64,000 bases of DNA, taken from the NCBI RefSeq assembly GCF_016950255.1, contig NZ_JACGFN010000002.1, positions 310,001 through 374,000 on the forward strand, written 5' to 3'. The translations under genes and the position numbers were made by a program. The stretch comes from Pectobacterium brasiliense (GTDB lineage Bacteria > Pseudomonadota > Gammaproteobacteria > Enterobacterales > Enterobacteriaceae). Position 1 is the stretch's first letter. Each line of letters begins with the position of its first letter. Below the pieces are notes generated by a model that was not told the origin of the DNA, did not search any database, and saw only the letters and a list, made by a program, of their open reading frames with translations. This document shows, piece by piece, positions 7,039 to 28,859 of this stretch.

Positions 7039-7962
7039 ATGCATCAGCACATCCTCGGGAACATACCTCTTAGCGCGCTACGCGCTTTTGAGGCAGCGGC
7101 ACGCCTGCAGAGCTTCAAGGAAGCTGCTACAGAGTTGTCGATCACTCCAACAGCGGTAAGTCATCGCATCAAACAGTTAGAGGATGCTCTTGATATCCGG
7201 TTATTCGCGCGTGAGGTACGCAGCGTCAGCCTCTCCGATGCTGGCCAACTTTTGTATCCTGCTGTCCACACTGCGTTTACCGGCATTGTGGGTGCGATCG
7301 AAGAACTGCAACGTCGAGACCGCAGGCCATCCGTTACATTAAGCACAACCTGCGGTTTTGCCGCTCGTTGGCTTTTGCCTCGTCTGCCTGCCCTCGCGGC
7401 GGCTATTCCTAACGTCGATTTGCACCTACATTCTTCTGATTCGCCAGTTCAAATTAAAGCTGGCAGTGCAGACCTTGCTATTAGATTTTGCACACCACCA
7501 GATTCAAGTGTTGAAAGCGAGGTATTGCTTCCTGGCAGATATGTGCCAGTTTGCGCTCCCTCACTTAATGCCGAAAATCGCGACGATTTCTCCAATATTG
7601 CGAGATTGCGTTTCCGTTCGAGTAAAAATGACGACTGCATTCCGGATTGGCCGCAATGGCTAGCCACTTCAACCATGGATGGAAAGCCGTCTGGACCAGA
7701 AATCGGCTTTTCTGACGAAGCACATACCATTCAAGCCGCAATTGCGGGTCAAGGAGTTGCACTTTCAAGTGTTGCCCTTGTTGCGGATGCTCTCGACGAA
7801 GGATTGCTTCGCGTGCCTTTCGGCCCGACAGTGGATGGTCGTGATTTCTATCTGCTCTCAGCCTTAGGTTCTTGTGAACATCCCGCAGTCGTGATGGTAA
7901 AAAATTGGCTTAGGGAAGAAGCGCGATTATTCGTGGCCAAACATTCAAATTATTTTTCATAG
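7039..7962 (+). CDS. LysR-family transcriptional regulator (GcvA-like)
   Basis: A 307-aa LysR-type regulator. Residues 8-67 form the winged helix-turn-helix: IPLSALRAFEAAARLQSFKE, then AATELSITPTAVSHRIKQLE, then the LFAREVRSVSLSDAG wing. Residues about 95-300 form the periplasmic-binding-like effector domain, with a WLLPRLPAL segment typical of the GcvA/AmpR branch. Family members bind small effectors and usually activate a divergent target while repressing themselves. The divergent azoR gene at 112 bp is the obvious candidate target. The ligand is unknown, possibly a quinone or azo compound given the neighbour. Confidence 0.9.
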   Translation: MHQHILGNIPLSALRAFEAAARLQSFKEAATELSITPTAVSHRIKQLEDALDIRLFAREVRSVSLSDAGQLLYPAVHTAFTGIVGAIEELQRRDRRPSVTLSTTCGFAARWLLPRLPALAAAIPNVDLHLHSSDSPVQIKAGSADLAIRFCTPPDSSVESEVLLPGRYVPVCAPSLNAENRDDFSNIARLRFRSSKNDDCIPDWPQWLATSTMDGKPSGPEIGFSDEAHTIQAAIAGQGVALSSVALVADALDEGLLRVPFGPTVDGRDFYLLSALGSCEHPAVVMVKNWLREEARLFVAKHSNYFS

Positions 7963-8113
7963 GATGCCCCTAAGACTAGAGATTAAATCTGTCAGCTCAA
8001 AAATAGTTCTGCTCATAGCTCGCGTCATGTGTACAAGGCGGTTATGAATTCATCTCCAATGATGGTGTCTTGCTCGCCAAAAGAATTATTTCGTGGTGCC
8101 TACTCTATCCAAT

Positions 8114-10102
8114 TCACAGGCCGCGTTGTTTTCTGAAATCCCACGCGACCCCGTTCCCATGCACTGTCGCAGCAATCTGCTGCCCTAGCCGCTGTTCGAT
8201 TACTGGCCGCCACGGCACTAGACTGAATTCCTTGCCATGGTCCAGGAGCGCGTAGCGGCCACTCACAAGCATCAAGGAGCGCCGGTAGATGCCGACCACC
8301 CTTTGCCCATCCGCAATCGGACGATGCTCCAGGCCGGTTGCAATGGCAATTCCTTCGGCAGCTTGCGCCATCTCCCGATTGCGCAGCGTGCTCAGCAGGT
8401 TGCGTGCGAGGATGACACGCCGCCCACGCCGCTGCGCCAGTCCCTGTTCTTCGAGGAAGTCGATGCGCTGCTGCAAGGCCTGCTTGGCGTCACCGCCAAA
8501 GCCGAGGTCGCCCATCCCACGGCCGCCGCCGATCAGTTGCTGGTCCAGCCAGGTGGCCCCAATCACGCGGGCCTGACGCTCAATTGCAAGATGCGATTTC
8601 AGTTGCACCGCCACGTCGCCCAGCCGCTGCGCGTCGTACTGGCGGCCACGCTCGGCCAGGTCGTCCGGCACCTTCCAGAGTCCATCGGCCACGCGCTCCA
8701 CGATGCCGGCGCGGCGCAGGGCCTCCAGCCGGCGGACATGGGCAGCGACAACCTCCTGCGGATCGCGTCCGGCCTTGGCCCGGCCCTGTTCGATGGCCAG
8801 GTGATGGTCGGCGCGGTACAGGCCATCGCTCGCCAGCGCGGCGATGTTCTTGTCGGCCGCGCGTATGTTGGCCGAATCCTTCACTTCCACCACCGCGCCG
8901 GTGGGATAGTTCGCCAGCTCGTCGCGGGCGTTCAGTGCGACGTAGTGGGCCTTGCCATCCACACCGTCGATGACCAGATAGCCACGGTCGTGCAGCTCGT
9001 CGGCCAGCCCCTTCGCAGCCACGCGGCCGAGGATGCTGCGGCCACCTCCATCATCATTCTGGCTCGGCTCGAACACTGCCAGCTCGCGCTGCTGGCCGCT
9101 CATGGCGCGCTGCATAGTGCGGATGATGTCGCCACGCTCGCCCAAGGCGCGCAAGGTCTTCTCAGCATCGGCATGGACGGCCCAGATGCCGGGCTGCATT
9201 TCGTCGGCCAGGCCCAGCCGTTGTAAGCGTTGCAGCCGGCCGATCAGCAACAGACGCTGGCGTTGCAGCACCGGTGCGTTGAACTGTTCGATCTGCACTC
9301 GGCCATCGTCGCCGGCTTCGCGTTGCAGGGTGCGATCCAGGTTCGTCCACCGCTCCTGTTCCACCTCGCGCCCCAACGTCTGCTGGATCTCCAGTTCGGT
9401 GCGCGGCCCCAGCCATTCGGTCGCCAGTTCGGCGGCCCGGTGGCGGAAGCCGTGGGCGATGTAGTCGCCGGCGATGATGAGGTCTTTGCCGGTGTCGTCG
9501 CGCCCGCGCACGATCAGATGGGTGTGCGGGTTGTCGGTGTTCCAGTGATCGACCGCCACCCAATCCAGCCGCGTGCCCAGGTCGGCTTCCATGCGGTTCA
9601 CCAGATGCCGGGTATAGGTGCGCAGGTCGTCCAGTTCCGCGCCGTCTTCCGGGGAAACGATGAAGCGGAAATGGTGCCGGTCGTCCTGGCAGCGTTCCTT
9701 GAAGGCATCAAGGTCGGCTTCATCGGCCTGCGGCCCGTAGGCCCGGCCCGGTTCGCCATCGCGGCCCGCGCCATCGCGCTCGATATAGCGCAGATGTTTC
9801 GCCAGCGACTGTGGGCTGGCGTTGCGCTGGTTGACCAGCAGCGTCTTGATAGTCACGCGCCGCGACATGGGGGTCAGCTTCGCGCCTGCGAAGCGCGCCG
9901 CCGTATGGCCGCGCCCCAAGCGCGAGCCGGGCCGCTGGCCTTGGCCGCCGGACGCGGCGGAATGGCGCACCGCCGACTTCCCGCCGCTGGCCTTGCCCGT
10001 CTGCTTGAGCACCTTGGAAACGAAGCTCTGGCCTTGGCCGTTGCCCCGGTTCTTCGGGGCGCTCGGGCGCACCCGGAAATCGTCGTCGCGGCGGTCGGTC
10101 AT
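8114..10102 (-). CDS. rlxS: VirD2-like relaxase of Tn4371-type ICE (DUF3363)
   Basis: A 662-aa protein that should nick the ICE at oriT and lead the strand into the recipient. From the ATG at 10102, residues 1-80 are basic and low-complexity. Residues about 82-200 form the relaxase fold, with the three-histidine motif in DHWNTDNPHTHLIV (H186, H193, H195) and a candidate nucleophile tyrosine in KHLRYIERDG (Y107). The remaining ~450 residues match the DUF3363-type C-terminus. A reading frame continues upstream to 10477, but that part is low-complexity and the ATG at 10102 begins the conserved protein (MTDRRDDDF). The relaxase precedes cargo here, as is usual for the accessory site beside rlxS in this family. 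Confidence 0.88.
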   Translation of the reverse strand: MTDRRDDDFRVRPSAPKNRGNGQGQSFVSKVLKQTGKASGGKSAVRHSAASGGQGQRPGSRLGRGHTAARFAGAKLTPMSRRVTIKTLLVNQRNASPQSLAKHLRYIERDGAGRDGEPGRAYGPQADEADLDAFKERCQDDRHHFRFIVSPEDGAELDDLRTYTRHLVNRMEADLGTRLDWVAVDHWNTDNPHTHLIVRGRDDTGKDLIIAGDYIAHGFRHRAAELATEWLGPRTELEIQQTLGREVEQERWTNLDRTLQREAGDDGRVQIEQFNAPVLQRQRLLLIGRLQRLQRLGLADEMQPGIWAVHADAEKTLRALGERGDIIRTMQRAMSGQQRELAVFEPSQNDDGGGRSILGRVAAKGLADELHDRGYLVIDGVDGKAHYVALNARDELANYPTGAVVEVKDSANIRAADKNIAALASDGLYRADHHLAIEQGRAKAGRDPQEVVAAHVRRLEALRRAGIVERVADGLWKVPDDLAERGRQYDAQRLGDVAVQLKSHLAIERQARVIGATWLDQQLIGGGRGMGDLGFGGDAKQALQQRIDFLEEQGLAQRRGRRVILARNLLSTLRNREMAQAAEGIAIATGLEHRPIADGQRVVGIYRRSLMLVSGRYALLDHGKEFSLVPWRPVIEQRLGQQIAATVHGNGVAWDFRKQRGL

Positions 10103-10550
10103 GGCTGTGCTCGCTGCAAGCTCTGGCGTGTCCTGGCGTGCGAAGCACGCGGACATGCCTGCATTGGCGCGACCCTCGCGCCGAACGCGGCACGGCGGCG
10201 AAGCCGCACCGTGCCGCGCCACCCCCATGTGCAGACAGGCTTTCGATGCGGCCCAGTGCCGCGTCCTTTTGTCTTGCCTTCCGCCTTTGCCCTTCGCTGT
10301 CGCTCCAGGCGTCGGCGGCCCGGCGGCGCTGCGTTGCTTGCAGCCAGACCGCCGGCGAACACAACGACGACCGCAGGCCGGGCGCGTTCGAGGCAAGACG
10401 CCTGCACGTTGGACGGCTGCGCCGAAGGCAGCGCGAAGTGCGGTGCGAATGCACCCGCACTGCACGCGCGACGACACCGCGACGGCCAGCAGAACGACAT
10501 GCCCGATGGCACGATAAGATGCACGGCAACGTGCAGCGAATCGGCGGCCG
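10103..10550. other. Non-coding segment between traF and the relaxase gene
   Basis: These 448 very GC-rich bp lie upstream of the relaxase start. All frames give only low-complexity Arg/Ala/Pro translations, so I see no real gene. The segment contains a strong hairpin (listed separately) and probably the relaxase promoter or oriT. Confidence 0.5.
10186..10218. other. Hairpin, candidate oriT element
   Basis: CGCGGCACGG (10186-10195) is perfectly complementary to CCGTGCCGCG (10209-10218), with an inner CGGC/GCCG stem around GAA. A long inverted repeat about 85 bp from the relaxase start is what many oriT regions show. The oriT assignment is inference; no nick site was identified. Confidence 0.35.
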
Positions 10551-11150
10551 TCATGGGCGTGTCTCCAGCCAGACCGGATGCGCGACGCCGATCACGGCGG
10601 ATGCGCTGATCGGGCCGAAATAACGGCTGTCGAACGATGCCGGATTGGTCACGCTCAACAGGAACAGCTCGCCCGGTTCAAGGCGACGGCAAAGCTGCAA
10701 GGATGGCAGCGGCCGGCCCAGCCGGTCGGCGGGCAGCACGGCGGCCACCGGCACGCCGTCGATGCGTGCCTGACCGGCGACGATGCAAACGTGTTGTGGC
10801 GCGACTGCGCCCACACGTTTGAGCAGCGGAACGTGTGCCGGCAGGTAGCCGCGCTGCGTAGCGAGCGTGGCAACATCTGGCGGCAATGTGGTCAGGACGA
10901 CGCTGCCTACGGACAAGGGGCGTGGCAGCAAGCCGGTGTCGTGGCGCTGTGGATCGACGCGATACCAGCCGACCGGAACGCTGATGGACGGGTTGTGGAT
11001 CAGGCGCGGCAGCGGCTGCACGAAAGCCGCCCAGGCCAGCGCAGCGAGGCCGACGGCGGCGAAGCCGGTCAGCACGATGCGAGCTCGCAGGCGCGAGCGA
11101 GGAAGCGGCGCGGCTTTGGGTGTGCGTGCGGCGGTGGGATGGGCCGTCAT
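10551..11150 (-). CDS. traF: TraF-like S26 signal peptidase, conjugative transfer
   Basis: A 199-aa protein with an N-terminal TM segment (residues about 23-43), then NPSISVPVGWYRVDP, which carries the catalytic serine (about S57), and PLLKRVGAVAPQHVC, which carries the general-base lysine (about K111). This Ser-Lys arrangement defines TraF/S26 peptidases, which process pilin or transfer proteins at the periplasmic face of the inner membrane. The start overlaps the stop of the DUF2840 gene by four bases, so it is translationally coupled. Length fits the family. Confidence 0.88.
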   Translation of the reverse strand: MTAHPTAARTPKAAPLPRSRLRARIVLTGFAAVGLAALAWAAFVQPLPRLIHNPSISVPVGWYRVDPQRHDTGLLPRPLSVGSVVLTTLPPDVATLATQRGYLPAHVPLLKRVGAVAPQHVCIVAGQARIDGVPVAAVLPADRLGRPLPSLQLCRRLEPGELFLLSVTNPASFDSRYFGPISASAVIGVAHPVWLETRP

Positions 11151-15693: not shown

Positions 15694-15862
15694 CAGAAGC
15701 GTAGAAGCACGAAGGCACATGCACGGAAGTCAGGAAAGACACGGATCAGGCTCTCCGCTTTTGAAGCAAGCCGCCAATGCGGATTTCAGTAAAGGCACAA
15801 AAACAGGTGAGATTGGATGAATGAGTTAAATATAACGTGGTTTTAATTGTGCTGCGAATCGA

Positions 15863-15884
15863 CGCTTCTGTCTATGCAGAAGCG
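15863..15884 (+). promoter_or_regulatory. Inverted repeat spanning the XRE start codon
   Basis: CGCTTCTG (15863-15870) and CAGAAGCG (15877-15884) are perfectly complementary. The six-base loop TCTATG contains the ATG of the XRE gene. It may be an autoregulatory operator or an RNA hairpin limiting translation. GCAGAAGCG recurs at 15693-15701 in the same intergenic region, which favours a protein-binding motif. Confidence 0.5.
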
Positions 15885-16164
15885 AACCGTCCAGCGCGGC
15901 CGACCGGCCGGCTCTACCACCTTCGACGCCGAGCTGGCCCAGGCCTTCGGCGCGGCGGTGCGCGCACTGCGGGTCGAGCGAGGCGTGGCGCAGGAAACCT
16001 TGGCACATCAAGCCGGTATCGAGCGTTCTCACATGGGCAAGATTGAGCGCGGTGAACACATGCCCACGCTGGCGATTATTTTCAAGATCGCGCGTACGCT
16101 GGGGCTCAGCGTCGCCCACTTGATGGGGGCCGTTGAAGAAGTCCTGGGCGAAGTGCCTAATTGA
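15874..16164 (+). CDS. XRE-family transcriptional regulator
   Basis: A 96-aa single-domain regulator. Residues about 21-80 form the Cro/C1 helix-turn-helix: ALRVERGVAQETLAHQAGIE, then RSHMGKIERGEHMPTLAIIF, then KIARTLGLSVAHLM. The ATG at 15874 was chosen; a GTG at 15847 is possible. No clear Shine-Dalgarno is present, and the start sits inside an inverted repeat. It is one of two plus-strand genes in a minus-strand backbone and precedes an HNH-like gene by 52 bp, so the two may form a unit. It probably represses its own promoter. Confidence 0.85.
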   Translation: MQKRTVQRGRPAGSTTFDAELAQAFGAAVRALRVERGVAQETLAHQAGIERSHMGKIERGEHMPTLAIIFKIARTLGLSVAHLMGAVEEVLGEVPN

Positions 16165-16216
16165 CTCTGCATCGCATAGCTTCGCTTGGCGTGGTGCAAC
16201 TTTGGAAAGGAACTCA

Positions 16217-17728
16217 ATGGCGAAGACATGCATCGTGTGCGGACAGGCCGCAGGCTCTGGGGAGCACGTTTTTCCGGCGTCTCTTGGAGGCCGGCGGGTC
16301 AACTCCGGCATCTATTGCCCCAAGCACGACAACAGCTATTCGGGTCTCGTCAATGAGATTGCCGAGCAGCTCGACTTCCTCAATGCATACTTGGGCGTTC
16401 GGCCGGATCACTCCAAGCACCCCAAAACTGCCTATGGCGAGCACACGCTGACGGGAGAGACCGTTTCGATCTCTGCCAAGGAGATCAAATTCACGAAGCC
16501 CCGCGTCATCTCCCGCACCGCAGTTGGCGAAGGTGAAGAGTTGCATCTGGCATTTCCCAACCAGCAGTCCGTCAAACAGTTCGCAAAAAAGATGGAGGAC
16601 GATGGACACGAGTGGACACCCTTGTCGAAGCCCTCCGCTCGGCCGTATATCACCGGCTCCATTCACCATAAGCGCAAATTTGGCGGTGCCTGTGGTCTGG
16701 GCGCCATCGCGTACATGACGCAGACATTCTTCGCGCAGGAATTCCCAGAGCTCGCGCGATCAGGGACGCTTTCCAACTTCATCAACTACACGCAAGCCAT
16801 CGCCAAGGTCGCAGCGCTGGGCGGCTGCGAACAGCAGCCGGAAGAGCGCGAGGAATTGATCGAGGCACGCGCGGCGGTGACGGTTGCGCTGGAGCCCTTT
16901 GGAGGCACGGCACCGATCTGGTGGGATTTCAGCCCGCCCGCCGGAGCGCGCGCCAACAAGTTTGAATTTGGGCATCGAGTGACGGTTGGTATTGATGGCT
17001 TTGACGGCCAAATCTACGGCCGTGTCGCGCTGTTCTCCACTTTAACCTTTGCCGTACACCTGGGCACGGCACCGCAGGGTTCCGCCACGCGAGAAGTGAC
17101 CGTGGACATTGATCCTCTCGCGGAGCATCCGCCACACGATATCGACAAACATCAGGTGCTCTCAGCGCTAGGCCGCGTTCAAGTGCCAGAACACTCTACC
17201 GAAGGGCTTGCGAATGCGCTCGCCGACGGCACGCAACAGCGTGCATTCGCAAACCTGCTGGAACGCTTGGAAGAACATCAACTCCTCAAACTGGCTCGCA
17301 CCATGAGTATGGCGCTCGCGCCATGTTCCACCTTGTCGCCATTTGAAGCGCGAACACTGATCGAAAAGGAACTTGACCAACAACCACAGCAAATTTGGCG
17401 CTTGGTCACTTTTGTCGTTGAAGGCTTACGGGCGAAAATGGTCAAAGGCGGCATGGGAAGCATTACCCCAGTGCTAGATAACCTGATTGCGTATGACGCT
17501 CAATCAGCAAGCGGTCTATCGCAGCAGGCCGAGGCCACGTTAGCCCTGGCCAAATCCGCATTAGTTGCACAGATGGAGCAAGACTGCGCAGCAGGCGTAC
17601 TCCACGAGGAACGCATTGCGGAACTCATAGGCAGAGGCCCTGGCCTTTATGCCGTGGGGCAGTTGGTGCTGGCCCCTGTCTTGCAGGTGTTTAGTGAATC
17701 CGCTCACCCCAATGAAGTGAGCAGGTAA
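16217..17728 (+). CDS. HNH-like nuclease domain protein, unknown role
   Basis: A 503-aa protein with an AAGGAA ribosome-binding site before ATG 16217. The N-terminus MAKTCIVCGQAAGSGEHVFP, followed by ASLGGRRVNSGIYCPKHDN, follows the HNH_5 layout: a Cys-x2-Cys pair, an EH...P motif, an LGG turn and a second metal-ligand group (C-P-K-H). The remaining ~450 residues are soluble, mixed alpha/beta, and I recognise no family in them. It lies between DUF2958 and DUF736, where the ICE backbone normally has only small conserved genes, so it is probably cargo. A regulator plus nuclease pair suggests defence or plasmid competition; this is inference. Confidence 0.6.
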   Translation: MAKTCIVCGQAAGSGEHVFPASLGGRRVNSGIYCPKHDNSYSGLVNEIAEQLDFLNAYLGVRPDHSKHPKTAYGEHTLTGETVSISAKEIKFTKPRVISRTAVGEGEELHLAFPNQQSVKQFAKKMEDDGHEWTPLSKPSARPYITGSIHHKRKFGGACGLGAIAYMTQTFFAQEFPELARSGTLSNFINYTQAIAKVAALGGCEQQPEEREELIEARAAVTVALEPFGGTAPIWWDFSPPAGARANKFEFGHRVTVGIDGFDGQIYGRVALFSTLTFAVHLGTAPQGSATREVTVDIDPLAEHPPHDIDKHQVLSALGRVQVPEHSTEGLANALADGTQQRAFANLLERLEEHQLLKLARTMSMALAPCSTLSPFEARTLIEKELDQQPQQIWRLVTFVVEGLRAKMVKGGMGSITPVLDNLIAYDAQSASGLSQQAEATLALAKSALVAQMEQDCAAGVLHEERIAELIGRGPGLYAVGQLVLAPVLQVFSESAHPNEVSR

Positions 17729-22118: not shown

Positions 22119-22689
22119 GGTCTTTCTCCTGACGAAAAGGGTTTGCTGTTCAAACCGCACACCGGATTCCTAGATTCGGAGCCCAGCCTTTCGGCTGTTC
22201 GGTGCGGTTGGCACGAGGAACCCGGTTGGCCCTGTTGCCACCGTCTTTCCTGAGTTCATCGCCCGCGACGGTCAGGAGCCCACGGACGTGGGCCGTCAAG
22301 GAGAAAAGCGGCAGGTAGGTGCGGCCCGCAGGCGTAGCCGAGGACACGGCCTGGCGCGCCTTGACGGCACGCGGCCACGGGCTACAGTCGCGAGCAAGGT
22401 GATGGAGTCAGGAGAGACGGCTGGACATGGCAACGGCCGCCGTGATGTGCAAGCCGCAAGCAAGCGAAGCGCGCAGGCCCGAAGCTGGAAGCCGGGCCGT
22501 AGGCGTCAGGGATGTGGAAGGCTGGCGAATGCCAGTCCCGTCAGGGATGAGCGAAGAGCGAACCTGGAGCAGCGCGGTCCGCAAAGCGGAGACGCAAGGC
22601 TCTTCTTGGCTTATTATCTATTTGTAAGCACCTACAACGGAATAACTTCTTTCCAGTTCAGGAATCTCAAATATAAAAAGGATAGAGCC
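22119..22689. other. Non-coding junction between DUF932 and the defence cargo
   Basis: The first ~490 bp are GC-rich ICE DNA with a repeated CGTCAGGGATG (22504-22514 and 22539-22549) flanking a CTGGC-GAAT-GCCAG hairpin (22522-22535). At about 22605 the composition switches abruptly to AT-rich, marking the probable left edge of the inserted SIR2-HerA block. An open frame runs through from 22288 but its translation is low-complexity before 22690. Confidence 0.5.
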
Positions 22690-23703
22690 TTGTCTGATGT
22701 CAACTACGAAAAGCAAGCTCAGGACTACTACGGCAAGGCTCCCATTATTATTTTGGGTAGTGGAGCCTCGGCTGCCCATGGAATGTCTGGCATGTGGGGG
22801 CTTGCGCAGCATTTGATAAAGAATACTGACGTTTCAGGGCTCTCTGATGCTGAGATGGAGTCCTGGGGGATGTTCTGTCAGACACTGACAGAAGGCGTGG
22901 ATTTAGAGGCAGCTCTCCACCGAGTAGCAGTATCTGAAGTGCTGACGTGCAGAATCATAAATTCTACTTGGTTACTTATAAACCATGAAGACTGCGGCAT
23001 CTTCAAGAGTGGCTTGCAAAATAGCTCGATGTTCCCGCTGAGCCGTCTGCTTGAACATATGTTCAAAACAAGCCTAAGAAAAATAAATATCATCACTACA
23101 AATTATGATCGTTTGGCAGAGTACGCATGCGAGCAAAGCAGGCTCCATCACTACACTGGTTTCACACACGGTTTTTTCCGTCAATTGGCCACGCCCGATG
23201 AACTGACCTGCTCGCGCAGAGTGAATATTTGGAAAGTACATGGCTCTCTAGACTGGTTCCAGTCCCCACTAGAGGACACTGTCGCAATTTCGGGCTCACA
23301 AGAAATACCTGAAAACTACAGCCCCCAGATTGTCACGCCTGGCACGCAAAAGTATCAGAAGACGCATCTTGAGCCATTTCGCTCAATTATAAATAATGCA
23401 GACGTAGCCATTAACGAGGCCGGATCATATTTGTGCGTCGGATATGGATTCAATGATGAACATATCCAGCCAAAACTTATGGCCAAATGTCAGCGGCATG
23501 GCGCACCAGTCACCATCATTACATACGCGCTTTCGGAGTCAGCTAAGAGACTTATCCTTGGCGGCAAAGCACAAAATTATTTAGCCATAGAGCGAGGAGA
23601 AACAGACAATCAGTCTATTGTCTACTCCTCCCTTAGCAGTTCTGCAGTTACAGTAGAGAAAAACATCTGGAGCCTTGAGGGCTACTTATCACTCATCATG
23701 TAG
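22690..23703 (+). CDS. SIR2-family NADase-like protein of a SIR2-HerA system
   Basis: A 337-aa protein read from a TTG start at 22690, preceded by AAGGA at seven-base spacing. The frame stays open to 22288, but the upstream part is GC-rich, low-complexity ICE sequence. SIR2-like motifs are IIILGSGASAAHGMSGMW (the nucleotide loop, residues 19-36), IITTNYDRLAE (TNYD, residues 137-140), and WKVHGSLDWF (catalytic-type H184). A GYGFNDEHIQPKL segment near the C-terminus is typical of SIR2_2 proteins in phage defence. In known SIR2-HerA systems this subunit depletes NAD+ when phage is sensed. The herA gene follows after 9 bp. Confidence 0.88.
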   Translation: MSDVNYEKQAQDYYGKAPIIILGSGASAAHGMSGMWGLAQHLIKNTDVSGLSDAEMESWGMFCQTLTEGVDLEAALHRVAVSEVLTCRIINSTWLLINHEDCGIFKSGLQNSSMFPLSRLLEHMFKTSLRKINIITTNYDRLAEYACEQSRLHHYTGFTHGFFRQLATPDELTCSRRVNIWKVHGSLDWFQSPLEDTVAISGSQEIPENYSPQIVTPGTQKYQKTHLEPFRSIINNADVAINEAGSYLCVGYGFNDEHIQPKLMAKCQRHGAPVTIITYALSESAKRLILGGKAQNYLAIERGETDNQSIVYSSLSSSAVTVEKNIWSLEGYLSLIM

Positions 23704-23712
23704 AGAGGACAT

Positions 23713-25440
23713 ATGCCAATATTCAACTTTAGGGATGAAGAAGCGCTCGGGAAGGTTGCCTCGGTTGACACCACGAATGTCATCGTGGACGTCGAGAATG
23801 TGTCTCATCTGAAGAGGCTTCAGGTTAATCACCTCGCTGTACTCCAGAGTAGCAAGCCAGGACAGCACCTGATTGGTCTTATTACGCAAGTGACAAGAAA
23901 GCGCGGCATTGAGAATCTTTCTGATGACGGAATCGTAGATCAGAATTCAGAGTTGAATCTGTGCCGCATTGCATTAATTGGAACCATGCTGGATCGCGAT
24001 GGCTCCAAGGAGAACGTTTTCCGTCGAACACTCGAAAGTGTTCCTGAAATAGATGCAAACTGCTTCGCTCTCGAAGGCGAGAACCTCACTGGATTTATGC
24101 GCACGCTCTCCAGTGTTTCAGCCGACGGCAATGCATTGACTCTCGGCAAATACACTCTGGATGACAATGCAGTAGCCTACCTTAATGGAAATAAATTCTT
24201 CCAGCGCCATGCCTTTATTGGAGGGAGCACAGGGTCTGGGAAGTCTTGGACAACGGCCAAAATTATTGAGCAGATGTCAGGGCTTTCTACAGCGAACGCC
24301 ATTGTCTTCGACCTCCACGGAGAATATGCGCCATTGACGGGGCCTGGCATTCAGCACTTCAAGGTTGCTGGGCCTGCAGATGTTGAAGCCCAACGCACTA
24401 TTTCTGATGGTGTGCTTTACCTGCCTTATTGGCTACTTTCTTATGAGGCGCTAGTTTCCATGTTTGTGGATCGCAGCGACCAAAATGCCCCGAACCAAGC
24501 CATGATTATGGCTCGCGAGATCAATCAGGCCAAGAGGAAGTACCTTGAAGACAATGGACAACAGGACTTGCTTAAGCATTTTACTGTAGATAGCCCTGTG
24601 CCATTTGATCTTAACTTCCTGATGTCGCGACTAAATGAAATAAACATCGAAATGGTTCCTGGTTCGCGCGGCGACAAGCAAGGCGACTTCTTCGGAAAGC
24701 TCGCACGCATGATTTCTCGCCTTGAGAACAAAATTTCCGATCGACGCCTCGGATTTATGTTTAATGGCGGCGGAGATATTCTTGATTTCACTTGGCTTGA
24801 GAAATTTGCCAGCGCTGCTCTTGGGAGCACTGCGGAGAACGGGAAAGCAGGAATCAAGATCATCAACTTCTCCGAGGTTCCCTCGGACGTCTTGCCCCTA
24901 ATCGTATCCCTCGTTGCACGAGTTACGTTCTCAGTCCAACAGTGGACGCCATCAGAGCTTCGCCACCCTATTGCGCTTCTTTGTGATGAAGCGCACCTAT
25001 ATATGCCGCAGCGCAATATGGCAGATTCTGCCGACGATATTTCACTGGATATATTCGAGCGCATCGCCAAAGAGGGGCGAAAATATGGCGTTAGCTTGGT
25101 TGTAATCAGCCAACGTCCATCCGAAGTAAACAAAACACTGCTTAGCCAGTGCAGTAACTTTGTATCTATGCGTCTAACCAATGCTGAAGATCAAGGAGTT
25201 ATTAAACGTCTACTTCCTGATAGCCTCGGCGGCTTCAGCGATATCCTTCCTACGCTCGACACTGGCGAGGCTTTGGTTGTTGGTGATGCCAGTTTATTGC
25301 CAAGCCGCATCAGAATCGACGAGCCACAAAATAAGCCGAATAGCGGGACTGTTAATTTTTGGGATGAATGGCAGATCCCAGTCGAAGAGAATCGACTAAT
25401 GATCGCTGTTGACAACTGGCGAAAGCAAAATATCCAATAA
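23713..25440 (+). CDS. herA: HerA-type hexameric ATPase/translocase of SIR2-HerA system
   Basis: A 575-aa protein with an AGAGGA site before ATG 23713. An N-terminal HAS-barrel-like domain (residues 1-110) is followed by the RecA-like motor. Motifs are Walker A GSTGSGKS (171-178), VFDLHGEYAPL (near 200), Walker B ALLCDEAH (421-428), and the C-terminal arm with SLVVISQRPSEVNKTLLSQC, then SNFVSMRLTN, typical of HerA/DUF87 proteins. HerA forms hexamers that translocate DNA; in bacterial defence systems it assembles with SIR2 or nuclease partners. Nine bases separate it from the SIR2 gene, so the two are one operon. Confidence 0.92.
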   Translation: MPIFNFRDEEALGKVASVDTTNVIVDVENVSHLKRLQVNHLAVLQSSKPGQHLIGLITQVTRKRGIENLSDDGIVDQNSELNLCRIALIGTMLDRDGSKENVFRRTLESVPEIDANCFALEGENLTGFMRTLSSVSADGNALTLGKYTLDDNAVAYLNGNKFFQRHAFIGGSTGSGKSWTTAKIIEQMSGLSTANAIVFDLHGEYAPLTGPGIQHFKVAGPADVEAQRTISDGVLYLPYWLLSYEALVSMFVDRSDQNAPNQAMIMAREINQAKRKYLEDNGQQDLLKHFTVDSPVPFDLNFLMSRLNEINIEMVPGSRGDKQGDFFGKLARMISRLENKISDRRLGFMFNGGGDILDFTWLEKFASAALGSTAENGKAGIKIINFSEVPSDVLPLIVSLVARVTFSVQQWTPSELRHPIALLCDEAHLYMPQRNMADSADDISLDIFERIAKEGRKYGVSLVVISQRPSEVNKTLLSQCSNFVSMRLTNAEDQGVIKRLLPDSLGGFSDILPTLDTGEALVVGDASLLPSRIRIDEPQNKPNSGTVNFWDEWQIPVEENRLMIAVDNWRKQNIQ

Positions 25441-25476
25441 TGAACCCTGCATTAAAGCGGGTGCTATTTTAATTAG

Positions 25477-25519
25477 GTTATTGCTTCCCACTACTCGGAA
25501 GAAAAATCGAGGCAATAAC
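25477..25519 (+). promoter_or_regulatory. Inverted repeat between herA and the nuclease gene
   Basis: GTTATTGC (25477-25484) and GCAATAAC (25512-25519) are perfect complements, with an inner TTCC/GGAA stem. The AT-rich 148-bp gap after herA may act as attenuator, operator or separate promoter for the nuclease. Confidence 0.4.
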
Positions 25520-25588
25520 TTTTTAAATTTACATTTCCAATGCCTGGTTGGTTTTTTGCACATGCAGGTAGTTTTCTGGAGTAGACGG

Positions 25589-26455
25589 ATGAGGGATGTA
25601 TTCAAGGATCTCAACGATGAAGATTGGGAGAATTTTGCTCAAGATGTTCTATTCCATCTTGGCTATACAATAGCTCTCGGGCCATCTGTGGGGCGCGATG
25701 ATGGCGTGGATCTTCTTGTCGAGAAAGGTGGACAGAGATTTGTTGTAAGTTGCAAACACCATCAGAAGGCTATTGGTGTTTCGCAGGAAAAAGACATTCG
25801 AGATCGCATGGAGCTTAATTCATGCTCGGGATTTATAGCATTCTACTCGTCATCAGTAACTTCAGGCCTGAAAAAAAAGTTTGGCAAGCTTCGCGAGCTT
25901 GATTTTAAAGTGGTCGAGTACTACAAAACAAACATCTTAGACATAATCCCTACAATGATGGGATTTGTTCTGGAAAAGTACTTCAAGCAAGTGCACGACC
26001 TATATCACCATGTGAACACAAACATGGTATACAAGCCACTACCTTGTGTAATGAGGTGTGGATGTAATGATATTTTATCAAAAGAGAATCTCCCTCGCTC
26101 AATGGTTACCCTTGTAAAAAAGGGTAATAAGCTATGTTTCGAATACGGCTGCAAAAAATGTCTCAGGGATTATCCTGAACACAACCTGGACTGCTTCGAC
26201 CCCGAAATAATAGGAGGATTCGATCTCATCGAAATATACTGGATGGAGATATCGCAGATTCGTTTTTTTGAGGAGTACTTCAAGTGGCGAGACTTAATTG
26301 ATTTATGCCTGGAGAATCTCGAGGTTGTCCCTGATGACGATTTCTACAAGAACTTATCCATATTTAACATGGCGCTAATGCAAGTTATGGTTCCGCAAGG
26401 ATGGGGGGTATGGCTGCCTGAAGAGTATGAAATCACCACGATTCGATTGATGTGA
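25589..26455 (+). CDS. Mrr-like PD-(D/E)XK restriction endonuclease with Cys cluster
   Basis: A 288-aa protein. GGAG at seven-base spacing supports ATG 25589 over more upstream starts, which overlap herA. Residues 1-100 are an Mrr/type IV-like nuclease: LNDEDWENFAQDVLFHLGY, then VGRDDGVDLLVEKGGQRFVV and SCKHHQKAIGV, giving the D41...S-C-K56 catalytic pattern (the usual form is D...QxK). The mid-region carries a Cys-rich module (CVMRCGC, then CFEYGCKKC) that looks like a zinc ribbon. The C-terminal ~100 residues are unassigned. It follows SIR2-HerA on the same strand with matching AT-rich codon use, so it likely belongs to the same cargo. Confidence 0.78.
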   Translation: MRDVFKDLNDEDWENFAQDVLFHLGYTIALGPSVGRDDGVDLLVEKGGQRFVVSCKHHQKAIGVSQEKDIRDRMELNSCSGFIAFYSSSVTSGLKKKFGKLRELDFKVVEYYKTNILDIIPTMMGFVLEKYFKQVHDLYHHVNTNMVYKPLPCVMRCGCNDILSKENLPRSMVTLVKKGNKLCFEYGCKKCLRDYPEHNLDCFDPEIIGGFDLIEIYWMEISQIRFFEEYFKWRDLIDLCLENLEVVPDDDFYKNLSIFNMALMQVMVPQGWGVWLPEEYEITTIRLM

Positions 26456-26597
26456 ATTTTGCAATTTATTTCTGAGCGATCAGATTAACTCTAAGGACTC
26501 TCTCGGTTAGGGCTTAAGAATTGATACGTCATATCTTCATGAGGGTATGCTGTTTAAAAAAACTTCGACAGTGCGACACACAACTTTGCTTTTTTCT

Positions 26598-27660
26598 TCA
26601 CGAAGTTTTAGTTGGCGTTTTGATGTGCAATTGTGCCCGTTGAGTTGCCTGCTTTAACTTCTCACTTAGCACTGCGCGCGGCGGCAAGCTTGTCAGGTAC
26701 TCGGCGACGTGGATGCCCGACTTGTCTAGTTCCAGCAACTCAATCTGTTCGCGCTTCTTGCCGGTGCAAAGGATGATCCCCAGCGGCGAGGCTTCCGCCA
26801 GCTCCCGCTCGTTCTTGTCCAGCCAGCGCAAGTAAAGCTCCATCTGCCCTTTGTAGGCCGCCTTGAACTCGCCGATCTTCAACTCCACCGCCACCAGCCG
26901 CCGCAACTTGCGGTTGTAGAACAGTAGGTCAAGGTGGAAATCCTCATCGTCGATCTGGATGCGCTTCTGTCGGGCGACGAAGGAGAAGCCCGCACCCAGC
27001 TCCAGCAGGAAGGATTCCATTTCACGGATGATGGCCGCCTCTAGGTCACTTTCCTGCCAGCTATCTCGCATTCCCAGAAAGTCGAGGATGTACGGGTCGC
27101 GCATCACGAGCGCCGGTGTCATGCGTTGCGCGTCGCGCAAGGTCGCCAGCTCCCGCTCGATGGTTTCTTTCGGCTTTTGCGACAACGCCGTGCGCTCGTA
27201 CAGCATCGAGTCAATGCGCTCGCGCAGAGTTCGCACGCTCCAGCGTTCAGCACCTGCAATCTGCGCGTAGTAGTCCCGCTGGAGCGGTTCCTTGAGTGCC
27301 AGCAGCAGGACAAAATGCGACCAGCTCAATTGTCGCGACAGTGTCGCGACAATTTGTTCTTCTGGGAACGTGGCGGCGAATTTGACCATCCGACGCAGAT
27401 TCTTCTCCCCAAAGCCGCGCCCATAGTCGCGGGCAAGCTGCTCGGCCAGAGTCGGCAAGATTTCCTCGCCGTACCCGGCCCGCTGCCCGGAAAGCACCTC
27501 CGTATGGATGCGCTGGCCAATCTGCCAGAATAGCAGGGTCAGTTCGGCATTGATCGTTGAGGCGACGCGCTGCTTCGATGTCTCGATCAGTGCCCGAATG
27601 TCCCCCAGCAGCGCCGTCGGTTCTGCTGGTGACGTGATGGATACCCTTTCGCCTGGTCAT
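26598..27660 (-). pseudogene. DUF1016 (YhcG-like) PD-(D/E)XK nuclease, 5' frameshift
   Basis: The intact part (GTG 27497 to 26598, 299 aa) is a DUF1016 protein with the nuclease core DEDFHLDLLFYNRKL followed by VAVELKIGEF (D and ExK). The reading frame continues upstream of 27497 with convincing family sequence (SPAEPTALLGDIRALIETSK, then AELTLLFWQIGQRIH), but no start codon lies in that frame before a stop at 27657. The natural ATG at 27660, which overlaps the int stop as ATGA, is one frame off. A small indel near codon 7 therefore disrupts the N-terminus. The gene could still be expressed from the internal GTG. DUF1016 proteins often accompany restriction or defence islands. Confidence 0.65.
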
Positions 27661-28859
27661 GCTGTCACCTCCGCAGGTGATTGCTTGACACAGGTTAGCG
27701 CTTTGCGCCGGTTCGCCACCAACTCGGCGGCCTCCCGCACGGGCTTGTCTTCGGTGTGGACGTAGCGCATGAACATCGCCACGGTCTTGTGCGCCGTCAG
27801 CGCCATACCGACCTTCACTGGGATGCCCGAATTGGCAATGTCCGTCGCCGAACGGTGGCGGATGCCGTGCGTACCCACATGCGTTACACCAGCGGCTTTC
27901 AGAGTGCGAGTCCAACCGCTGTAATACTCGCCATCGCTCAGGTGCCGATCTGGATGCCGTGGAGAGGGCAGCACATGGGGCTTCATAGCATTGCGGGCGG
28001 CTGTTGAAAGAAGCCGATAGGCTTCTTCGCTCATGGGCTTGGACATACCCCCTGTCTTGCTGTCAGGCCACACCACGCGCCGGTTTTCCAGATCAATCCA
28101 ATCCCATTGAAGCTCAATGATTTCGGAGCGACGAGCGGCAAACTCGAATTGCAGGCGGATGGCCAGCGGGATCACTGCATGCTCCAGGCCTTCCGCCTCC
28201 AATTGGTCAAGGTAGCGAAACAACTTGCCCATTTCCTCGTCGCTGATGAGGTGAGTCGCCTTGCCGTTCGGGTACATGGGCACATGGCGGCATGGGTTAG
28301 TGCCGTCAGGGCGATAGCCCCATACCTCAGCCAAGTTGAACATCTTGCGCATCACGCTGAACGTGCGGTTCGCATCGGCGGGTTTGTGCGCCATCTTCTT
28401 CATCATCGAAGCCACGTCAGGCCGCTTCAGATCCTGCACCTTCATGCGACCAAGCATCGGGATGATGTTGCGGTCAATGACGCTCTGGTAGCCTTCCTGC
28501 GTGCTAGGCTTGTTACGCTGGCTGGAGTAGTCTTCCATGAACTTGATGCACAGCTCCTTGACCGTGGGTGCCTGACGCGCTGCAGCCTTCTCTGCAGCAG
28601 GGTCGCCACCTCGGCGCACTTGCGCCAGCCACTCCTGCGCCAGCGACCGAGCCTGTTCGACGGTCAGTTCTCCATAGAGCCCCAAGGCAGGTTTGCGCCG
28701 CTCTCCGGCATTCGTGCGGTACTGGAGCATGAACACCTTGCGGCCTGCCGGGGTGATCTTGCACAGGAAGCCGGGAACCAGGGTATCGCGCAGTTCGACT
28801 GGCTGCGCTTGGGCTTGTGCCGCATCGACTGCGGACTTGGTGAGTTTGATTTTCGCCAT
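27657..28859 (-). CDS. int: Tyrosine integrase of Tn4371-type ICE
   Basis: A 400-aa P4-type tyrosine recombinase. The N-terminal arm-binding domain (DTLVPGFLCKITPAGRKVFM, then LQYRTNAGERRK) is followed by the SAM-like core-binding domain. The catalytic domain shows FAARRSEIIELQWDWID (first Arg, about 243), GTHGIRHRSATD (H331, R334), a TAHKT box (H357) and MRYVH (Y366). It integrates the circular ICE into a short T-rich attB and excises it. Its start is about 175 bp from the right end at 29041. The stop overlaps the DUF1016 ATG by four bases. Confidence 0.95.
   Translation of the reverse strand: MAKIKLTKSAVDAAQAQAQPVELRDTLVPGFLCKITPAGRKVFMLQYRTNAGERRKPALGLYGELTVEQARSLAQEWLAQVRRGGDPAAEKAAARQAPTVKELCIKFMEDYSSQRNKPSTQEGYQSVIDRNIIPMLGRMKVQDLKRPDVASMMKKMAHKPADANRTFSVMRKMFNLAEVWGYRPDGTNPCRHVPMYPNGKATHLISDEEMGKLFRYLDQLEAEGLEHAVIPLAIRLQFEFAARRSEIIELQWDWIDLENRRVVWPDSKTGGMSKPMSEEAYRLLSTAARNAMKPHVLPSPRHPDRHLSDGEYYSGWTRTLKAAGVTHVGTHGIRHRSATDIANSGIPVKVGMALTAHKTVAMFMRYVHTEDKPVREAAELVANRRKALTCVKQSPAEVTA

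Follow-up and report, generated by a model that had tools for sequence, protein, structure and literature searches.

Published relatives of the SIR2-HerA gene pair analyzed here are described, in the passages available from three reports, as assembling into a 12:6 complex, hydrolyzing NAD+, and having nuclease and helicase activity (PMC11263360; PMC12198126; PMC11559045), and a solved entry, 8uaf, is given as Sir2-HerA in a passage of one of them (PMC11263360). According to excerpts of the work on V. cholerae, immunity was lost when the SIR2 active site was mutated, and resistance to two ICP1 phages was retained when a whole island was deleted except for SIR2-herA; the gene map of the same island has an endonuclease after Nezha (PMC11559045). 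In the titles, abstract openings, and passages of the open-access literature that were searched, we found no description of SIR2-HerA and an Mrr nuclease as one system. Here we analyzed a window of 64,000 nucleotides of Pectobacterium brasiliense, i.e., the whole stretch of DNA under study, in which a SIR2-HerA pair is followed by an Mrr-type nuclease gene. We consider it likely that these genes are two adjoining, separable defense cargoes in one variable slot by the integrase end of a mobile element, namely a complete Nezha-type pair and a stand-alone Mrr-type nuclease.

The placement of the three genes on one strand in an AT-rich slot of a mobile element was confirmed (Table 1). The initial annotation had described SIR2, starting at TTG 22690, and HerA as lying 9 bp apart with intact motifs, and the gene calls, motif positions, and protein families all agree with it. 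The SIR2 protein has GSGAS at residue 23, TNYD at 137–140, and H184, and HerA has the Walker A and B motifs GSTGSGKS at 171 and LLCDEAH at 422. The nuclease has GRDDGVD at 35 and SCK at 54, and the HerA stop codon occupies 25438–25440. Sequence comparison supports the TTG as the probable SIR2 start: at the DNA level, three of the five closest relatives read are homologous from 22691 onward, and 337 aa is the size of 108 of the best 120 of 3,101 SIR2 relatives. The Pfam matches were SIR2_2 (43.7 bits) and DUF87 (93 bits), and the PADLOC models, for which PADLOC states no cut-offs, scored 466.8 bits for SIR2 and 802.2 bits for HerA.

Table 1. Features of the gene block and of its surroundings, in positions of the window.
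Feature	Position	Strand	Evidence
Left edge of variable cargo slot	22509..22617	.	Homology stops at 22509 (Klebsiella plasmid) and 22617 (Leclercia plasmid)
SIR2-like gene, 337 aa, TTG start, putative NADase subunit	22690..23703	+	ORF, SIR2_2, PADLOC
HerA-family ATPase gene, 575 aa, 9 bp after SIR2	23713..25440	+	DUF87, PADLOC
AT-rich spacer, 148 bp	25441..25588	+	SIR2-HerA homology stops at left edge
Mrr_cat nuclease gene, 288 aa, ATG 25589, with cysteine-rich, probably zinc-binding part	25589..26455	+	
YhcG/DUF1016 PDDEXK gene adjoining integrase	26598..27497	-	
Tyrosine integrase of element	27657..28859	-	

The SIR2 and HerA genes look like a complete two-gene SIR2-HerA (Nezha-type) system. 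Their adjacency is conserved, in that the homology of each of the five closest relatives read (L023, L024, L025, L053, and L055) extends over both. The identity to the window in these relatives is 72–76% for SIR2 versus 88–90% for HerA, and judging from these values the SIR2 subunit is diverging faster than the ATPase in all five. The NCBIfam equivalog scores were below the cut-offs (SIR2_antiphage, 28.4 versus 500; HerA_antiphage_2, 290.7 versus 850). Against the PDB, SIR2 scored 23.5–44 bits to SIR2 chains, and HerA scored 113 bits to 8j4u_M and up to 233 bits to another HerA-type chain. Because the scores lie far under the NCBIfam cut-offs and the solved chains are distant, the pair is assigned to a SIR2-HerA subfamily outside the curated models and far from the solved structures. 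This subfamily, which is documented here, is frequent in sequence data, where SIR2 has 3,101 relatives at E 1e-30 or better. By analogy with the passages available of PMC11263360, N138 and H184 would be the catalytic residues of SIR2, and we infer from published relatives, as far as the same excerpts describe them, that the pair may form a 12:6 complex with NADase activity (PMC11263360; PMC11559045; PMC12198126).

The edges of the slot were defined by comparison with two plasmids. A Klebsiella pneumoniae plasmid (L015) matches the window up to 22509, a Leclercia plasmid (L049) matches it over 22514–22617, and homology with both resumes at 26622, inside the YhcG gene, i.e., at the right edge. 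The 2.4 kb right flank with YhcG and the integrase is common to both plasmids, and the left flank in common is about 1.1 kb for the former and about 0.1 kb for the latter. Between these flanks, the Klebsiella plasmid has an AraC regulator, a LysE translocator, and a hypothetical gene, and the Leclercia plasmid has an IS630-type insertion and two hypothetical genes. Since the two plasmids have the flanks in common and other cargo between them, the edges drawn in the initial annotation are right, and the region 22690–26455 sits in a cargo slot. The slot beside the YhcG-integrase pair thus holds different genes in different elements. In the SIR2 relative P0052 (96%), the N-terminus is extended by a stretch that by eye resembles the left flank of the window in another frame, which suggests a second element with a SIR2 gene in the same slot. 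Shedu nuclease and AAA ATPase genes were seen in the Leclercia plasmid near the slot but further out (389–4042 of L049), so the YhcG-integrase end may be a defense hotspot.

The genes to the left code for DUF932, ParB, DUF736, RPA, ParA-type, DUF2840, S26 peptidase, and DUF3363 proteins, the last having a domain known from relaxases. A TrbE/VirB4 match of 39 bits (cut-off 21) was found at G000:C2:302329, which is 7.4 kb left of the window. From the integrase, the DUF3363 protein, and the TrbE/VirB4 match, an integrative conjugative element is plausible. The window also has an HTH (XRE-type) gene with a 531-aa frame at 15847–17728; the frame shows an HNH-like cysteine/histidine pattern by eye and no Pfam match, and the two genes are possibly another cargo pair.

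The base composition agrees with these edges. The GC content is 0.663 over 22161–22605 and falls to 0.345 over 22606–22689; it is 0.466 in the SIR2 gene, 0.484 in the HerA gene, and 0.419 in the nuclease gene, versus 0.59–0.67 in the ParB, DUF932, YhcG, and integrase genes of the element. The edges of plasmid homology, and on the left the GC drop as well, match the composition switches that the initial annotation placed near 22605 and ahead of the DUF1016 gene, and the low GC content and the slot edges bear out the description of the block as AT-rich cargo carried by a mobile element. The initial annotation had further attributed the same AT-rich codon use to all three genes. Their mutual codon-usage distances (0.17–0.22) are consistent with this, against 0.26–0.42 to the ParB, DUF932, YhcG, and integrase genes and 0.25–0.36 to the chromosomal genes mgtE, galK, and galT; as a minor correction, the pair is less AT-rich than the nuclease gene. 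Over 22160–26800, the numbers of terminator-like sites (6, versus 4.5 with sd 2.0 in shuffles) and promoter-like sites (8, versus 4.8 with sd 2.5) were not informative. A weak terminator-like site lies at 25446–25461, in the spacer after HerA. No promoter-like site was found in the 148-bp spacer, 25441–25588, so co-transcription of HerA and the nuclease gene is possible. An Rfam scan of 8000–32000 gave zero matches.

A three-gene system as a general form was rejected on adjacency counts from both sides, and with it the general version of the initial annotation's proposal. A nuclease profile search found no nuclease near the pair in any of the 14 SIR2-HerA loci read (L023, L024, L025, L037–L041, L043, L044, L053, L054 with two loci, and L055). 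In the other direction, neither SIR2 nor HerA was found at E 1e-3 near the nuclease relatives at 13 loci (L016–L022, L034–L036, and L045–L047), with seven loci taken from the genome collection, three from other genomes, and three from plasmids. These 13 are distant relatives (28–46% over the segment that matched) and represent the wider family rather than the close subfamily; the tblastn match covered most of the nuclease in only four of them (L016, L017, L018, and L034). In the five closest relatives read, the stretch that is homologous at the DNA level runs from 22691–22709 to 25433–25442, i.e., over the two genes and nothing more. When the viral_contigs collection was scanned with HerA, a single locus came up; it has SIR2 but lacks the nuclease.

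The counts retain three weak SIR2-HerA loci, namely L041 (SIR2 25% over 163 residues), L043 (HerA in pieces), and L055 (only about 0.6 kb of sequence after HerA), and three nuclease loci in which one flank is cut by a contig end (L016, L017, and L022). They leave out L042 (HerA without a SIR2 match), L048 (1,500 bases), L003–L007, L027, L028, L029, and L050–L052 (the same places as longer counted stretches or L042), L030–L033 (the same places as L034–L036), and L008–L014, which are short loci of distant HerA matches with zero tblastn nuclease matches, three of them with weak SIR2 matches.

The neighbors differ at the other SIR2-HerA loci. In L040 (4957–7896, genome G473), HerA is directly followed on the same strand by a 978-aa frame that by eye resembles a type I restriction subunit. 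L054 (G975:C51:121000-140000) has two SIR2-HerA loci on opposite strands, which belong to different subfamilies (HerA 75% and 43% identical to that of the window) and whose HerA genes are about 5.4 kb apart. In L043 (G507:C1:36000-53000), HerA lies beside SIR2 at 7949–10905, split into three matching pieces with about 1.2 kb between two of them, and looks broken in this genome.

The abundance of the nuclease and HerA families also differed. A large protein set gave 50 nuclease entries (E 1e-3) versus at least 7,981 HerA entries (E 1e-100), in a search that needs common five-residue words and leaves very distant nuclease relatives uncounted. Even if all 50 lay beside HerA, they would amount to about 0.6% of the HerA entries, and because its family is this rare relative to HerA, the nuclease cannot be a regular part of the SIR2-HerA system. 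Among 72,556 plasmid records, at least 80% of HerA was found in one place in 99 and at least 80% of the nuclease in none; five records had a partial nuclease match (all but H25 and H26 were read). The nuclease alignment A1 (22 sequences) matched, at E 1e-10, three genomes among 246 in the family, two among 349 in the phylum, and one among 197 in the order, and at E 1e-15 one among 369 in the class, each count including the genome of the window itself. The corresponding numbers for HerA, again with this genome included, were 11 of 246 in the family at E 1e-20, and 4 of 369 in the class and 4 of 197 in the order at E 1e-100. No close nuclease relatives were found in viral_contigs with either the single nuclease protein or A1, and a single partial match came from tblastn against the phages collection.

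The third gene appears from its sequence to code for a stand-alone restriction-type (Mrr-type) nuclease. Its Mrr_cat domain scores 29.6 bits (Pfam cut-off 21). The canonical Mrr active site is D...[E/Q]xK. D41 and K56 are invariant in A1, and the E/Q position before the catalytic lysine is a serine (S54-C-K56) in 22 of 22 sequences. The structural model (pLDDT 79.5, pTM 0.51) has alternating helices and strands at its N-terminus, and this part is compatible with a PD-(D/E)xK fold. No PDB entry matched the model in a Foldseek search at E 0.001 or better; the best match was an FdxN-element excision factor (0.011), and from this and the weak ones, which include Hjc-type resolvases and Avs4, nothing was drawn. 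A PDB sequence search with A1 gave zero matches. The serine in place of the usual glutamate or glutamine and the lack of a Foldseek match at this threshold would fit a decaying or inactive passenger without a defense role. However, the frame is open and of full length, and D37, G39, D41, S54, C55, K56, C153, C188, and C191 are invariant in the 22 aligned sequences, which points to selection; we therefore consider this explanation very improbable. Among the distant relatives, two lie in tandem at 7728–9324 of L034 (G183:C1:150500-168000). Another, in the Sinorhizobium meliloti plasmid pAK76 (3923–7888 of L045), follows a TrlF-family AAA ATPase gene on the same strand by about 90 bp, with a caspase-family gene nearby.

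We also regard a more restricted version of the three-gene proposal as unlikely. It holds that, in a young, lineage-limited variant, one subclade of SIR2-HerA took up the nuclease as a third effector transcribed with the pair, with the nuclease cutting phage DNA and SIR2 depleting NAD+, i.e., that a narrow lineage (HerA about 98% or more) recently fixed the zinc-binding Mrr-type nuclease as a third gene in one cassette that moves between related elements. If true, NAD+ depletion would be combined with dedicated DNA cleavage in one cassette. The common strand, the distance of 148 bp with no promoter-like site in the spacer, and the similar codon use of the three genes fit this variant, as does a probable second lineage. 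The nuclease relative P0001 (91%), which stands for 11 sequences, occurs on 6 contigs, the longest of 295,615 bp, from the sources jgi, lgn, and ena, and the HerA relative P0174 (98%) has an identical contig count, longest contig, and sources. The two are thus very probably on the same contigs, and a second, closely related lineage probably carries both genes. As a control of this fingerprint, 18 of 120 SIR2 entries had a longest-contig value in common with a HerA entry. The other close nuclease relatives have 58–79% identity, and by longest contig only P0001 of the 50 nuclease entries matched a HerA entry and none matched a SIR2 entry among those listed, a weak test that drew on the best 120 of 3,101 SIR2 and the best 120 of at least 7,981 HerA entries. 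The probable sharing of contigs fits either of two histories, a young functional partnership or the recent inheritance of the block in its entirety. Against the variant stand the 0 of 14 and 0 of 13 adjacency counts and the end of the common homology block at the HerA stop codon. The suggestion in the initial annotation that the nuclease adds DNA cleavage to NAD+ depletion has the probable second lineage (P0001/P0174) on its side, and has both adjacency counts and the 50 versus at least 7,981 entries against it. Moreover, since passages of PMC12198126 and PMC11559045 ascribe nuclease activity to SIR2-HerA itself, adding DNA cleavage need not be new. In general, co-location in a defense island does not make one system.

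If, as we prefer, the pair and the nuclease are separable cargoes, SIR2 and HerA would form a large complex by analogy with solved members, and the sensing of phage infection would lead SIR2 (through N138 and H184) to hydrolyze NAD+ and so stop phage growth, as in published relatives. The 288-aa PD-(D/E)xK nuclease would most likely cut foreign or modified DNA independently of the pair. Pair and nuclease would have met in the slot, and their joint inheritance by at least one sister lineage may have followed.

Compared with known systems, the locus is like Nezha in that a SIR2-like gene adjoins a HerA-family gene on one strand and the NAD-binding and P-loop motifs are intact, and differs in that its SIR2 and HerA are distant in sequence from the solved members. 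The pairs on pF045_1 of Pseudomonas aeruginosa, pADAP of Serratia entomophila, and pCadTS8_1 of Catenovulum adriaticum are much closer (HerA 88–90% and SIR2 72–75% identical), with an annotated SIR2-HerA gap of 8–9 bp like the 9 bp of the window; in contrast to the window, a nuclease relative is absent from the 4–5 kb read on each side of them. The nuclease resembles single-gene Mrr_cat proteins such as ORF1 from the Z-region of a P2 prophage (P2-EC67), the sole gene of a 1.5-kb record (303 aa), which is 40% identical over residues 7–103 of the window's protein, its C-terminal part being unmatched in the pairwise search. The locus is also like HerA-DUF4297 in pairing a HerA ATPase with an effector. 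In the passages of PMC12198126 at hand, the effector of HerA-DUF4297 is a Cap4-like nuclease complexed with HerA, whereas in the window the partner of HerA is SIR2 and the Mrr_cat protein is separate.
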